Shown here: in pieces, positions 30,008-34,752 of the stretch
Position numbering within the stretch: position 1 is the first letter of the stretch
Layout: each line of letters begins with the position of its first letter
Source: an uncultured Clostridia bacterium
GTDB lineage: Bacteria > Bacillota > Clostridia > Christensenellales > Borkfalkiaceae
Length of the DNA stretch: 63,348 nt
Assembly: GCA_944328495.1 (NCBI GenBank)
Contig: CALVHR010000011.1
Coordinates: 1 to 63,348 of the forward strand
Direction of reading: 5' to 3'
Notes under the pieces: model-generated
What the model saw: only the letters and a program-made list of their open reading frames with translations
Database searches by the model: none
What the model was told of the DNA's origin: nothing
Made by a program: the position numbers and the translations under genes

Positions 30008-30949
30008 ATGCAGACAAAATTAACTGAACTTTTGGGTATTCAGTACCCGATCATGCAGGGAGGCATGGCGTGGATCGCCGATGCCTCTTTGGCGAGCGCT
30101 GTTTCCAATGCGGGCGGCCTGGGTATCATTTCCGCGATGAATGCAAACGCGGACTGGGTGCGCGAAGAGATCCGCAAATGCCGCACCATGACGGATAAGC
30201 CGTTCGGCGTAAACATTATGCTGATGAGCCCGCATGTGGAAGAAGTGGCGAAGATGGTCGCGGAGGAGAAAGTTCCCGTCGTCACGACAGGGGCGGGCAA
30301 TCCTTCGCGTTTTGTAAAAATGTGGAAAGAAGCGGGCGTCAAGATCCTGCCCGTAGTCGCGTCCACGGCGCTTGCAAAGATGGTTGAGCGCGCGGGCGCG
30401 GACGCAGTCATCGCCGAGGGCGGCGAGAGCGGCGGGCACGTCGGCGATCTGACGACGATGGCGCTTGTTCCGCAGGTCGTCGATGCAGTGAATATTCCCG
30501 TCGTGGCGGCGGGCGGCATTGCGGACGGAAGGGGCATGGTCGCGGCGTTCGCGCTGGGCGCGTGCGGCGTGCAGATGGGCACCCGTTTTCTCGTAGCGAA
30601 AGAATGTACGGTCAGTGCCGAATATAAGAAAAAAGTTCTTGCGGCGAAGGATATTTCGACGATGGTCACAGGCAGGCGCCTGGGGCATCCCGTGCGCGCC
30701 ATCAAGACGGCGTACACCAATCAGTACGCGAAACTGGAAGCGGATTCCAACTATCCCGACGAAAAACTCGAAGAGTTCGGCGTGGGGTCTTTGCGCAAGG
30801 CCGCCAAGGACGGAAATGCAGAGGAAGGTTGTTTCCTCGCAGGGCAGATCGCGGGCATGGTGAAAGAAGAACAGACCGTCGCCGAGATCATTGCCGACGT
30901 CATGAAAGGCGCCGAAAAGCTGATGGAGGGCGTCAAATGGGACGTGTAG
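30008..30949 (+). CDS. fabK: Enoyl-ACP reductase II
   Basis: A 313-aa FMN-dependent TIM-barrel enoyl reductase, the form used by many Firmicutes in place of FabI. Motifs: YPIMQGGMAWIADASLA, GGLGIISA, PFGVNIML, GAGNPSRFV, EGGESGGHVGDLTT and GTRFLVAKECTV. Related to 2-nitropropane dioxygenases, but its place between acpP and fabD settles the role. It overlaps fabD by 13 bp. Confidence 0.95.
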   Translation: MQTKLTELLGIQYPIMQGGMAWIADASLASAVSNAGGLGIISAMNANADWVREEIRKCRTMTDKPFGVNIMLMSPHVEEVAKMVAEEKVPVVTTGAGNPSRFVKMWKEAGVKILPVVASTALAKMVERAGADAVIAEGGESGGHVGDLTTMALVPQVVDAVNIPVVAAGGIADGRGMVAAFALGACGVQMGTRFLVAKECTVSAEYKKKVLAAKDISTMVTGRRLGHPVRAIKTAYTNQYAKLEADSNYPDEKLEEFGVGSLRKAAKDGNAEEGCFLAGQIAGMVKEEQTVAEIIADVMKGAEKLMEGVKWDV

Positions 30950-31773
30950 CCTTTTTGTTCGCGGGGCAGGGCGCGCAGGTGCCCGGCATGGCGGGCGATG
31001 TAAAAGACCTCCCCAAAGTCAAAAAACTCTTTGATCTTGCCGAAAGCATCCGTCCCGGCACGGTGGACAAGATGCTTTTTGGCACGCAGGAAGAACTCAA
31101 CCGCACTTTGTTGACCCAGCCGACGATGTTTCTTGCCGATCTCGCGTATGCGTACGCGAAAGAGGAGGAGCTCGGCACGCCCGACTGTGCGTGCGGCTTT
31201 TCGGTGGGCGAAGTTCCCGCGCTCTGTTTTGCGGGTGTTTTGTCCGAAGAGGACGCATTCCGCACGATCGTAAAGCGCGCGGAACTGATGGAAGCGTATA
31301 CACAGCGCGTCGCCGGTTGCATGATCGCGGTCATCGGGCTCGCTCCCGCGGCGGTGGAAGCGCTCTGCGACGGGGAAAATACGCACCCTGCCAATTATAA
31401 CGGATCCAAACAGACGGTCGTTGCGTGCCGCGCCGAAGCGGAGGCGGATTTCTGCGCCAAAGTGAAAGCTGCGGGCGGCAGAGCGATGAAACTGCGCGTT
31501 TCGGGGATGTTCCATTGCCCCGAGCTTGCGCCCGAAGCGGAAGCGTTCGGGTCCTTTTTGCGTGGCTTGAAATTGAATGCACCTCGTCTGGACGTGTATG
31601 CGAACCTGACGGCGCAGCCGTATGCGGGGGATTTTGCGGATACGCTCGCGCGGCAGATGTGTTCGCCCGTGCGCTTTACGGCGACGATCGCGAACATGAA
31701 AGCGCGCGGCGTGGAAGAATTTGTGGAAGTCGGTCCCGGGAAAGTGCTCTCGGGGCTGGTGCAGAGAGGGTAA
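30937..31773 (+). CDS. fabD: Malonyl-CoA:ACP transacylase
   Basis: A 278-aa transacylase that loads malonyl groups on ACP. The nucleophile Ser89 lies in GFSVGE (usually GHSLGE) after FLFAGQGAQVPGMAGD at the start; the catalytic His is in GMFHCPE, and the end is VGPGKVLSGLVQR. About 30 residues shorter than E. coli FabD. The start at 30937 lies inside fabK, implying translational coupling. Downstream comes the first structured repeat instead of the next gene. Confidence 0.93.
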   Translation: MGRVAFLFAGQGAQVPGMAGDVKDLPKVKKLFDLAESIRPGTVDKMLFGTQEELNRTLLTQPTMFLADLAYAYAKEEELGTPDCACGFSVGEVPALCFAGVLSEEDAFRTIVKRAELMEAYTQRVAGCMIAVIGLAPAAVEALCDGENTHPANYNGSKQTVVACRAEAEADFCAKVKAAGGRAMKLRVSGMFHCPELAPEAEAFGSFLRGLKLNAPRLDVYANLTAQPYAGDFADTLARQMCSPVRFTATIANMKARGVEEFVEVGPGKVLSGLVQRG

Positions 31774-31783
31774 AAAAAGAAAC

Positions 31784-32165
31784 TCGTGAAAATCTCGGCG
31801 CGACGGCGCCTGCGATTTTCTACGACGGGAGGGGAAACCCGAACGGTTTTCCCCTCAACGCGGCATAAAACAGGGGCACACATATTATTGAAATGCCGCG
31901 TTTTCACCCCATCCGTGAGCCTTCGGCAAATCGGGGGAAAAAGCCAAAAGTGTGATTTCGGCTTTTTCAATTTTTTATTAAATAATTTCTGCGCGTTCCA
32001 AAATCGCAATTTTGGATAAGCGCACTCAATTTGTCGCATACCTGCGACCTCAAGCGGGTGAATGCGGCGCGCGTACTATGGTGTGCCCTAAAAAAGGCGC
32101 GCCGCAGAGGGCAGAGCCCTCAAATCACGGCTTTTTCTTTCGTCAGCTCGAAAGAAAAAGCGTGA
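31784..32165 (-). repeat. Structured intergenic repeat, copy A (full length, inverted)
   Basis: A 382-bp non-coding element in the fabD-fabG gap, in opposite orientation to copy B (32928-33308). In element orientation (read on the minus strand) it has: terminal hairpin 32125-32165 (TCACG ... CGTGA); GAGGGC hairpin 32107-32121; variable-stem hairpin 32064-32105 (arms GCGGCGCGC); a 161-bp core 31903-32063; variable-stem hairpin 31857-31902 (arms AACGCGGCAT); AGGGGAAA hairpin 31830-31855; terminal hairpin 31784-31825 (TCGT ... ACGA). The core differs from that of copy B at only about 11 of 161 positions, including two one-base indels. No known family recognised. Confidence 0.9.
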
Positions 32166-32183
32166 GCAGAAGGAGAAGTTTTT

Positions 32184-32921
32184 ATGGAAAAAAGAGTTGC
32201 CCTGATCACGGGCGCGGGCAGAGGGATCGGCGCAAAGATCGCGCTGACGCTTGCGCAAGACAATACAGACATTGCCGTCGTCGATTACAGTGACGAAGAG
32301 GCGGCAAAAGAAACACTGGACGCACTCGCGCAGGCGGGAGCCGTTGCGCGTTATTATAAATGCGACGTATCCGATTTTGCGGGAACAAAAGCGGTCGTCG
32401 ATCAGATCGTAAAAGATTTCGGGAAGATCGATATTCTTGTCAACAACGCGGGAGTGACCGCGGACAAACTGATCATGCGCATGGAAGAAGCGGATTGGGA
32501 CAGGGTGCTGCGCATTAACCTGAAAGGCTGTTTCAACATGATCAAGCACGTCACGCCGTACATGATGCGCAAGCGTTACGGCAGGATCGTATCCATTTCA
32601 TCGGTGGTGGGACTGATGGGCAATGCGGGACAGGCGAACTATTCGGCGTCCAAGGCGGGCATCATCGGGCTGACAAAATCGGTGGCGAAAGAATTCGGCT
32701 CGCGCGGCATCACGGCAAACGCAGTCGCGCCGGGCTTTATCAAGACGGCAATGACGGACGCTTTGACCGAAGAGCAGAAGCAGGCGATGTACAAATTGAT
32801 CCCGCTCGGGTCTTTGGGCGAAACGGAAGACATTGCGCAGGCGGTTAAATTTTTGGTATCCGACTGTGCGCGTTATATCACGGGCGAAGTTCTGCGCGTG
32901 GACGGCGGAATGTGTATGTAG
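32184..32921 (+). CDS. fabG: 3-oxoacyl-ACP reductase FabG
   Basis: A 245-aa short-chain dehydrogenase that reduces 3-oxoacyl-ACP with NADPH. Nucleotide motif GAGRGIGAKIA, NNAG, catalytic Ser in SISSVVG, Tyr153 and Lys157 in YSASKAG; the end is VLRVDGGMCM. AGAAGGAGAAG precedes the start. It sits alone between two inverted copies of the structured repeat, so it is separated from fabD by 410 bp and from fabF by about 600 bp inside an otherwise compact cluster. Confidence 0.95.
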   Translation: MEKRVALITGAGRGIGAKIALTLAQDNTDIAVVDYSDEEAAKETLDALAQAGAVARYYKCDVSDFAGTKAVVDQIVKDFGKIDILVNNAGVTADKLIMRMEEADWDRVLRINLKGCFNMIKHVTPYMMRKRYGRIVSISSVVGLMGNAGQANYSASKAGIIGLTKSVAKEFGSRGITANAVAPGFIKTAMTDALTEEQKQAMYKLIPLGSLGETEDIAQAVKFLVSDCARYITGEVLRVDGGMCM

Positions 32922-32927
32922 AAGGGT

Positions 32928-33308
32928 TCACGAAAATTCTTTTGTGCTGACAAAAGAATTTTCCGTGAGGGGGAGGGCTCTGCCCTCTATCCGCGATCAA
33001 TAAGGGCACAAACAGAATTATAATCGCGGATATTCACCCGCTGAGGTCGCAAGTATGCGACAAATTGAGTGCGCTAATCCAAAATTGCGATTTTGGAACG
33101 CGCAAAAATTATTAAATAATAAACTGAAAAAGCCAAAATCACACTTTTGGCTTTTTCCCCCGATTTGCCGAAAGGCTTACGGAAGGGGTGAAGTTGCGGC
33201 ATTCATGATAAGTGTGCACTTAAAAATGCCGCAACGAGGGGAAAGCCGTTCGGGTTTCCCCTGAAACTCACGAAAATTTGTTTCGTCGGCACGAAACAAA
33301 TTTTGTGA
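32928..33308 (+). repeat. Structured intergenic repeat, copy B (full length)
   Basis: A 381-bp element right after fabG. Order: terminal hairpin 32928-32968 (TCACG ... CGTGA); GAGGGC tct GCCCTC 32973-32987; variable-stem hairpin 32989-33031 (ATCCGCGAT / ATCGCGGAT, loop with GGGCACA); core 33032-33192 with hairpins GTCGCA/TGCGAC, CCAAAA/TTTTGG and GAAAAAGCCAAAA/TTTTGGCTTTTTC; variable-stem hairpin 33193-33235 (GTTGCGGCATT / AATGCCGCAAC, loop with GTGTGC); AGGGGAAA/TTTCCCCT 33237-33262; terminal hairpin 33268-33308. The symmetric plan is the same as in copy A. Confidence 0.9.
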
Positions 33309-33317
33309 ACAGATACC

Positions 33318-33500
33318 TGAAAAAGCCGAAATCACACTTTTGGCTTTTTCCCCCGATTTGCCGTAGGCTTACGGAAGAGGTGAAGCCGCGCGAATCATGG
33401 CAGTGTGCCCCGAAAGGTCGCGCGGCGAGGGGAAAGCCGTTCGGGTTTCCCCTGAAAATCTCGGCATTTCGCAGGCGACAGCTCGCCGAGAAATGCGAGA
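33318..33500 (+). repeat. Structured intergenic repeat, copy C (right half only)
   Basis: Begins within the core (from CTGAAAAAGCCGAAATC) ten bases after the end of copy B and continues through the variable-stem hairpin 33385-33426 (arms GCCGCGCGA / TCGCGCGGC, loop with GTGTGCCC), the AGGGGAAA hairpin 33427-33453 and a terminal hairpin 33459-33500 (CTCG, CATTTC arms). Same orientation as B. The left half is absent, so this is a partial duplication or the remains of an older insertion. Confidence 0.85.
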
Positions 33501-33519
33501 ACAGGAATTGGAGGATTTT

Positions 33520-34752
33520 ATGGAAAAGAGAGTTGTGGTTACGGGCCTCGGCGCGATCACGCCGCTCGGCAACGACGTTTTGACGACTTGGAACAATATG
33601 AAAGCGGGCGTGAACGGCATCGACACCGTAACGAAATTTGACGCGTCCGAGTATAAATGCAATCTTGCGGGAGAAGTGCGCGGGTTTGACCCGACGCTGT
33701 ACATGCCCAAGGGCGAGGTGCGCAAGACCGATCTGTATTGTCAGTATGCGGTCGCGGCGGCGACGCAGGCGTACGAAGATTCGGGCATGACGGCAGAGAG
33801 CATAGCTCCGGAGCGGTTCGGCGTGTATATCGGGTCGGGCATCGGCGGGATTCATACGCTGGTTGCCGAGCACACCAAGCTGATCGAAAAGGGACCGGGC
33901 AGGGTATCTCCGTTTTTTGTGCCGATGATGATTTCGAACATTGCATCGGGCACGGTAGCGATCAAATACAATGCGCAGGGACCGAACATCGGTATTGTTA
34001 CGGCCTGCGCGACATCGACGAACAGCATCGGCGAGGCGTATCGCGCGATCAAGCACGGGTATGCGGACGCTATGCTCGCGGGCGGGAGCGAAGCGGCGAT
34101 CACGCCGCTGTGCTTTGCGGGATTTATTTCCTGTCAGGCGCTTTCGCAGAGCACGGACAAGGACCGCGCGTCCATCCCGTTTGACAAAGAGCGCGGCGGG
34201 TTTGTGATGGGCGAAGGCGGCGCGGTCGTGATGCTCGAAGAATACGAGCATGCCAAAGCGCGCGGCGCGAAGATCTACGCGGAAGTTGTGGGCTACGGCT
34301 GTACCAACGACGCATATCATATGACGGCGCCCAATCCCGAAGCGATCGCATCGGCAAAGGCGATCGAACTTGCGGCGAAAGAGGGCGGCATCGAAGCGGG
34401 CAGGGACGTGTACGTCAATGCGCACGGCACGGGCACGCCGCTCAACGACAAGACAGAAACGCGCGCGCTCAAACGTGCATTCGGCGACGGCGCATACAAA
34501 TTACATGTGTCTTCGACAAAATCCATGACGGGGCACATGCTTGGCGCGGCGGGCGGCATTGAGGCGATCGCGTCCGTGCTTGCGCTGCATGAAGGGATCA
34601 TTCCTCCCACGATCAATTACCGCGAAAAGGACGAGGAATGCGATCTCGACATCACCCCGAACGAGGCGCAGAAAGCGGAACTGAAATATGCGCTTTCGAC
34701 GTCGCTCGGTTTCGGCGGGCACAACGGCTGCCTTGCCTTTAAGAAGATTTAA
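33520..34752 (+). CDS. fabF: 3-oxoacyl-ACP synthase II
   Basis: A 410-aa condensing enzyme of chain elongation. Active-site Cys163 in TACATSTNS, with His in NAHGTGTPLND and STKSMTGHMLGAAGG. The start at 33520 (MEKRVVVTGLGAITPLG) has TTGGAGG upstream; the frame is open into the repeat but that part does not belong to the protein. Downstream genes encode acetyl-CoA carboxylase, which makes its malonyl substrate. Confidence 0.95.
   Translation: MEKRVVVTGLGAITPLGNDVLTTWNNMKAGVNGIDTVTKFDASEYKCNLAGEVRGFDPTLYMPKGEVRKTDLYCQYAVAAATQAYEDSGMTAESIAPERFGVYIGSGIGGIHTLVAEHTKLIEKGPGRVSPFFVPMMISNIASGTVAIKYNAQGPNIGIVTACATSTNSIGEAYRAIKHGYADAMLAGGSEAAITPLCFAGFISCQALSQSTDKDRASIPFDKERGGFVMGEGGAVVMLEEYEHAKARGAKIYAEVVGYGCTNDAYHMTAPNPEAIASAKAIELAAKEGGIEAGRDVYVNAHGTGTPLNDKTETRALKRAFGDGAYKLHVSSTKSMTGHMLGAAGGIEAIASVLALHEGIIPPTINYREKDEECDLDITPNEAQKAELKYALSTSLGFGGHNGCLAFKKI

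Follow-up and report, generated by a model that had tools for sequence, protein, structure and literature searches.

Hairpin-chain repeats flanking fabG are members of a large, family-specific set in the Borkfalkiaceae

The three elements that flank fabG in the fatty acid synthesis cluster of an uncultured Clostridia bacterium (A, B and C) are members of a large, family-specific set of repeats. A and B each consist of two arms of one kind, about 200 nt long and joined head to head, while C is a single such arm. The arms occur in many copies between genes, are present or absent at the same gap depending on the species, and have their outer ends near a stop codon or a Shine-Dalgarno motif. Their hairpins differ block-wise from copy to copy and pair almost without wobble. 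The arms are most likely REPIN/BIME-like non-autonomous mobile DNA.

Elements of the fabG locus

The window, that is, the whole 63,348-nt stretch of DNA analyzed here, is contig C11 of a genome of 2.12 Mb in 56 contigs. By NCBIfam the gene order is fabH, fabK, fabD, fabG, fabF and accC, fabD being the top model for its gene with 212 bits, below the model cut-off of 260.9. A profile seeded with the arms of the window and iterated over further loci finds five arms and no sixth: one in each orientation in A and in B, and a minus arm in C (Table 1). The right arm of A ends outward directly before the Shine-Dalgarno motif of fabG. C stands in tandem to the right arm of B, and its outer end lies directly before the Shine-Dalgarno motif of fabF. 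The limits set by an earlier note on this DNA agree with ours within 2–3 nt at the outer ends and are off by more at the inner end of C (33318 for 33311). C, which that note described as a partial third element, is one complete arm, oriented like the right arm of B.

A is inverted relative to B, and its reverse complement is 76% identical to B (294 of 387 alignment columns). The plan of both elements is symmetric because both are head-to-head dimers of one arm family. Their cores, judged 93% identical by eye, are closely alike as claimed, with a measured identity of 90% (146 of 163 columns) that rises to 95% over the best 131 nt. No coding capacity was seen in the elements, which agrees with the earlier description of them as non-coding by appearance.

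Table 1. Arms, elements and neighboring genes in the window. Bit scores are those of the covariance model, and all five arms are among the 56 that trained it.
Feature	Position	Strand	Parts and placement	Source
fabD-like gene	30829..31773	+	stop codon 9 nt before H1 of A	NCBIfam
Element A, whole	31782-32167		between fabD-like gene and fabG	covariance model
A, left arm	31782..31979	+	H1 31783-31825; H2 31829-31856; H3 31857-31902; H5 31937-31968	covariance model, 166 bits
A, right arm	31980..32167	-	H5 31991-32025; H3 32063-32106; H2 32107-32121; H1 32125-32167	covariance model, 170 bits
fabG	32184..32921	+	stop codon 4 nt before H1 of B	NCBIfam
Element B, whole	32926-33310		between fabG and fabF	covariance model
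B, left arm	32926..33114	+	H1 32926-32968; H2 32973-32987; H3 32988-33032; TTCACCC box from 33033; H4 33046-33061; H5 33069-33103	covariance model, 159 bits
B, centre	33104..33125	none	A+T-rich meeting point of both arms	
B, right arm	33115..33310	-	H5 33126-33157; box 33185-33192; H3 33193-33235; H2 33236-33262; H1 33267-33310	covariance model, 196 bits
Element C, whole	33311-33502	-	fabG-fabF gap	covariance model
C, complete single arm	33311..33502	-	H5 33319-33350; H3 33385-33426; H1 33459-33502	covariance model, 167 bits
fabF	33520..34752	+	17 nt after outer end of C	NCBIfam

Anatomy of the arm

The arm is an ordered chain of hairpins, about 200 nt long, that reads inward as H1, H2, H3, a TTCAC box, H4, CAAAT, H5 and an A+T-rich inner end. 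H1, the outermost and bulged hairpin, measures about 43 nt and joins a GTTCAC..GTGA base to a hypervariable stem. Alignment of the best 150 of 240 model matches gave 144 distinct arms, among which the H1 loop is of the GCTGA type in 101, and 139 have a bulge on the 3' side of H1 close to its base, with C as the bulged nucleotide in 112; the TTCAC box is present in 138 and CAAAT in 125. H2 is a G+C-rich palindrome, found in a short GAGGGC form, as GAGGGGAAACCC..CCCCTC, or in longer versions. H3 has a freely varying stem around a GGGCAC-like motif, and the loop of H5 is GTGTGA-like. Dimers are bounded by H1 in inverted orientation, each H1 being part of an arm of about 200 nt, and many arms are single or in tandem.

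At the start of contig C1 of the genome of the window, from 57-466 onward in locus L013, one arm is repeated head to tail with a 210-bp period at the contig end. A second recurrent module, a minus H1-like hairpin followed by a GGCGGCGGAGCC...GCAGCCGC hairpin, was seen in L104 (just after 836), L106, L116, L140, L147 and L115 (after 3915), in some cases apparently lodged inside the H5 hairpin. Four loci (L100, L101, L114 and L123) share the module ..CCGCGCAGGTATTCCGTC..GGGGTATGGGGCAA.CGCCCCATA.., with variants, beside the inner end of single arms.

Copy number and host range

Searches by BLAST with B as the query and with a covariance model of the arm returned many copies rather than a single locus. 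BLAST found 30 match pieces in the genome of the window, some of them on both strands of one place; the matches to B are distributed over 10 contigs (C1, C9, C10, C11, C17, C18, C20, C22, C28 and C43), with several per contig on some. Copy number differs between genomes. In one relative (G013), 20 end stretches totalling 400 kb held 38 arm pieces; in the genome of the window 14 of the 16 stretches not chosen for a known element held no arm, and one of the two arm-bearing stretches is a contig end whose match BLAST had already seen.

The genus is placed within Christensenellales by NCBI taxonomy. With B as the BLAST query, matches were obtained in 33 of 61 genomes, which are 33 of the 37 from the genus and none of the 24 from other families of the order. 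The covariance model matched 48 of 151 genomes of the host family, in 5 of its 18 genera, and 16 of 18 genus genomes among those listed; in a class-wide draw it matched 3 of 291 genomes, all in the host family. The whole plan recurs end to end in arms of other family loci, such as L200 from G139, a genome of another genus. Matches per genome are lower bounds, with 11 (BLAST), 16 (family) and 8 (class-wide) candidates scored in each genome. Because the candidates were few and the model searches were run with strict filters, weak or divergent copies may exist elsewhere.

The exact 24-mer of H2 occurs in 77 stretches of named genomes, 73 of them from Candidatus Borkfalkia or from Clostridia/Firmicutes MAGs and 4 from sphingomonads. 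The latter (Sphingobium/Sphingopyxis, L097, L102, L108 and L117) showed no arm by nhmmer and were therefore treated as unrelated and excluded from the gene-context counts; the 24-mer sits there in a G+C-rich stretch that is conserved among them.

Pairing almost without wobble

Pairing was scored on 56 arms, namely the five of the window and others that we picked for diversity. The covariation score was 0.631, compared with 0.192 for the shuffled control, so the symmetric hairpin plan described in the earlier note is real and far from chance. Paired cells made up 94.7%, a share that fell to 68.6% on shuffling and to no more than 51.5% on sliding, and both sides had changed in 37 of the 43 pairs.

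The mismatches bear on whether DNA or RNA is being maintained. Read in the arm frame, G.T and A.C account for 32 and 24 of 5,266 cells (p 0.35), and read in the transcript frame for 20 and 13 of 3,288 (p 0.30); both counts omit six of the 43 pairs, since an H1 subtype and an H5 column are out of register in the alignment (a single column accounts for 49 of 65 H1 G.T cells and another for 26 of 37 H4/H5 A.C cells). When all pairs are kept, the numbers are 106 G.T and 62 A.C of 6,081, which is still far from RNase P. H3 by itself has 5 of each among 1,436 cells, and 111 of 144 H3 stems are perfect over 10 bp, with 36 different perfect stems. Conserved RNA helices drift through G.U. Our control, the consensus fold of RNase P RNA aligned from 30 genus loci, has 315 G.T and 5 A.C of about 2,490 cells, the A.C count being lowered because the control pairs were chosen by a program. 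This choice does not explain the gap in G.T share, which is 12.7% in RNase P and 0.6% in the arms. The scarce and nearly balanced G.T and A.C cells, set against the wobble of RNase P, argue that pairing is kept at the DNA level; the stems seem to be maintained as DNA and not as RNA.

The earlier note had left room for a structured RNA, which here would be either a cis-regulatory RNA or a small RNA with many copies. The strong covariation and the conserved loops and boxes are what such an RNA would offer, yet wobble is not favored over A.C as it is in the RNase P of the genus, and the arm is present in both orientations within dimers. No Rfam family matched the window at the gathering score, and with E up to 10 the best match over 31700-33560 had an E of 0.2 and 29.9 bits against a cut-off of 57. 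We consider the structured-RNA reading quite improbable. Covariation is commonly held to be proof of functional RNA. The arm family, with its textbook covariation and almost no wobble, is a natural cautionary case for RNA discovery, and it provides a system for testing DNA-templated upkeep of palindromes.

Probable exchange of hairpins between copies

Hairpins reassort among arms. From arm to arm, the identities of the modules (H1, H2, H3, the H4 region and H5) show weak correlation, with Spearman coefficients of 0.03 to 0.46 and a value of 0.03 for H3 and H5. Among 10,296 arm pairs, 85 have at least three modules at 93% identity or more, and 30 of these 85 have another module at 65% or less. 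At one site in G016 and G019, where the flanks are 93% and 87% identical, an unusual base of H1 is kept and the stem is another hairpin.

Loci L063 and L064 are a near-identical pair, at 98.8% over 2,636 bp. Over the roughly 400 bp of gap compared they differ only in one H5 block of about 25 nt and in three bases further on, and both H5 versions form hairpins; part of this comparison depends on a contig from G017, whose listed contamination is 5%. G017 has two fabG copies (on its contigs C35 and C14), one of them in a 2.6-kb stretch that is 98.8% identical to G012; in another region of G012, long pieces are only 76–85% alike in G017. The near-G012 stretch of G017 is probably the contig of a contaminating strain.

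In 81 arm pairs of at least 85% identity, hairpins of H1 and H3 with at least four double changes hold 103 double and 6 single changes, while isolated changes in H1, H3 and H5 of these pairs are mixed, at 86 double and 72 single. As changes that cluster in one hairpin are mostly double, whole-hairpin replacement accounts for the blocks, and ordinary decay is visible beside it. It thus seems that copies exchange whole hairpins as DNA.

Placement beside genes and polarity of arrays

Judged by a refined gene caller, all 115 arrays are intergenic, with no gene overlap of more than 60 bp (13 of 133 arrays lay over a called gene with a first, cruder caller). Once 12 arrays whose nearest gene is more than 400 bp away and others with no gene on one side had been set aside, 80 could be classified: 69 lie between codirectional, 9 between convergent and 2 between divergent genes. 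The 785 background gaps comprise 615, 96 and 74, respectively. The codirectional excess over this background is not significant (p 0.11), and the divergent deficit has a p of 0.04.

Placement within the gaps is sharper. After 33 ends with another arm outward had been set aside, 123 distinct outermost ends with an intact H1 were left. A gene ends opposite 76 of them and starts opposite 37, and for the other 10 no gene was called outward. Where a gene end is faced, the stop codon is followed by H1 after 0–11 nt in 56 of the 76 cases, and H1 starts between 25 nt before the gene end and 14 nt after it in 67; a narrower count, restricted to stop codons no more than about 60 nt from the arm, gives 57 of 70. 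Where a gene start is faced, 10–21 nt are left between H1 and the start codon in 25 of 37 cases, and these spacers have a Shine-Dalgarno-like motif in most of the cases listed. Uniform placement in codirectional gaps predicts 6–10% by position or 18–20% by gap (p <=7e-24). Selection against other positions and a real target preference would both produce such adjacency to stop codons. In L105, L109 and L303, short direct repeats of the 5' side of H1 (GTTCACGAAAA..) are stacked between the stop codon and H1, and these resemble scars of earlier ends.

Arrays also have a polarity. Adjacent arms less than 60 bp apart in the 77 named-genome stretches form 28 plus-minus, 20 plus-plus and 27 minus-minus pairs, and no minus-plus pair (0 of 75). 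The minus-plus order is likewise missing from 108 adjacent pairs of a larger, partly overlapping set, in which that order appears once with a spacing of 462 bp and 25 times with one of at least 500 bp. Where arms touch, H1 was never seen facing H1. The absent order would be explained by nested insertion at inner ends, or by the loss of anything placed outside.

Occupied and empty sites

Twenty-nine of the 30 fabG loci of the genus could be parsed (L079 is left out, and three had no fabF start found downstream). Their fabD-fabG gap holds arms in 7 and none in 22, and their fabG-fabF gap holds arms in 16 and none in 13; in four other loci the fabG-fabF gap is just 29–80 nt. One empty site, the sole one at close range, involves a single arm plus a degenerate stretch: these occupy 266 nt in G016, where G019 has 17 nt, and the flanks agree at 95% over 345 nt and at 92% over 390 nt. 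A 5-nt TGAAC, read by eye, is a candidate target duplication at this site, the other empty sites being too diverged. More distant genome pairs also set occupied against empty gaps, without exact boundaries. Relatives therefore do have empty sites, both as gaps without arms on either side of fabG and as the G019 site that is free of the G016 element. These few empty sites suggest that the arms may be mobile. Of the options raised in the earlier note, a mobile non-autonomous element fits best, with its dispersed copies, empty gaps, intergenic sites and want of coding capacity. Counting against such an element are the occupation of the same gaps in many species, which a purely selfish element need not show, and the facts that no target-site duplication is defined and no transposase is tied to the arms.

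The arms could instead be intercistronic punctuation that benefits the host, in which chains are kept at operon gaps and their hairpins tune translation termination, mRNA decay or operon polarity. The spacing of H1 from stop and start codons, the predominance of arrays between codirectional genes and the filling of the same gap across species while its sequence changes all agree with this proposal. The codirectional excess is not significant, however, and arms are missing from most fabD-fabG gaps and from 13 fabG-fabF gaps of the 29 loci. Moreover, the fabD-fabG copy of G006 and G035 differs at 7 of 286 sites, compared with 23 of 3,447 in its surroundings, and looks degenerate; being degenerate and divergent, this copy decays. 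We judge a host-beneficial role of this kind to be rather unlikely. The sharp placement at stop codons and Shine-Dalgarno motifs makes a role in operon expression, or tolerance by it, directly testable.

Candidate helpers and carriers

Matches to PF01797 (Y1) occur in 23 of 40 genus genomes, and by their sequences these Y1 transposases look IS200-like. No arm was found by nhmmer near the Y1 genes in the 20 loci fetched, with flanks of up to about 1.5 kb, and the element-rich genomes G003, G017 and G026, which are incomplete, gave no Y1 match. A RAYT/Y1 enzyme as the specific helper was rejected on those 20 loci. A phage origin was likewise set aside, as there was no phage match and no match to the H2 24-mer in viral_contigs, and so was a plasmid origin, the plasmid matches listed (20 of 79 records) all lying within the fabG part of the query. 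In the sampled DNA, neither a cargo gene between plus and minus arms nor an autonomous parent transposon with arm ends was found; the genes between such arms read as ordinary host genes.

The arms might still be REPINs in the strict sense, that is, H1 doublets moved by a RAYT (REP-associated tyrosine transposase). They share with these the inverted, bulged terminal hairpins, the high copy number and the extragenic location, but the arms are about 200 nt long with five hairpins, compared with 20–40 nt, the Y1 proteins look like ordinary IS200-type TnpA and have no arm at the loci fetched, and the three element-rich, incomplete genomes lack a Y1 match. This identity is highly improbable.

Proposed origin of the arms

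We lean towards the arms being mosaic interspersed palindromic repeats that spread non-autonomously in trans, whose hairpins are copied between repeats and which are confined to the gap between stop codon and Shine-Dalgarno motif. That the arms are multi-copy, dispersed and absent from sites in relatives is observed; from there we infer the further steps. The units would spread as non-autonomous DNA mobilized in trans by an enzyme that may read the bulged H1. Copying of hairpins between repeats would keep the stems perfect. In quasipalindrome-type templating, one half of a palindrome serves during replication as the template for the other half, and such copying could maintain the stems instead. 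Only the stretch from stop codon to Shine-Dalgarno motif would allow insertion, or survival after it.

A more far-reaching version, possible and put forward tentatively, takes the hairpins as interchangeable cassettes in a fixed chain, whose structure is inherited while the sequence turns over. The chains would dock between stop codon and Shine-Dalgarno motif with a one-way polarity of plus and then minus arms. This would call for an undescribed machinery of copying or insertion, one that recognizes the outer hairpin with its bulge.

Comparison with known systems

No description of a Borkfalkia intergenic repeat was found in the literature covered, mostly outside subscription papers, and no such family was found in work on REP and MITE in Clostridia, REPs and stop codons, BIME, BOX and candidate RNAs. 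MITEs resemble the arms in being short, non-coding and multi-copy, with inverted ends and presence or absence between relatives; the arms differ in that no target duplication is defined, in that the sampled DNA yielded neither a parent transposon nor a cargo gene, and in a conserved interior whose elaboration goes far beyond the needs of a MITE. The ends of IS200/IS605 elements are imperfect terminal hairpins recognized by TnpA. The arms are like these ends in their imperfect terminal hairpins, which are mentioned for IS200/IS605 in PMC3116915, whereas in the 20 loci searched no arms flank the Y1 genes of the genus.

SPRITE is a pneumococcal repeat, and BOX-type repeats are modular in build. 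BOX and RUP are described as small interspersed repeats of pneumococcus, a Bacillota genome (PMC3049150). Compared by description, the arms differ from BOX, RUP and SPRITE in their head-to-head arrangement, fixed hairpin order and hairpin-by-hairpin exchange.

The REP, BIME and REPIN sequences of enterobacteria and pseudomonads share with the arms an extragenic location, high copy number, imperfect palindromes, inverted doublets and mosaic clusters. A REPIN is reported to consist of two inverted REPs linked to a RAYT (PMC3116915). The placement of arms beside stop codons recalls the REPs of E. coli, of which one study counts 446 of 4,072 within 15 nt of a stop codon; REPs so placed are reported to stall ribosomes (PMC12306157). 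The arms differ from REP, BIME and REPIN in their unit of about 200 nt with five ordered hairpins, in stems that are hypervariable yet paired, in H1 never facing H1 and in showing no RAYT association in the loci seen. By kind, the arms belong with the mosaic interspersed palindromic repeats (REP/BIME/REPIN, BOX); they are set apart from them, besides the missing RAYT link in those loci, by their ordered chain, their whole-hairpin exchange and their polarity.
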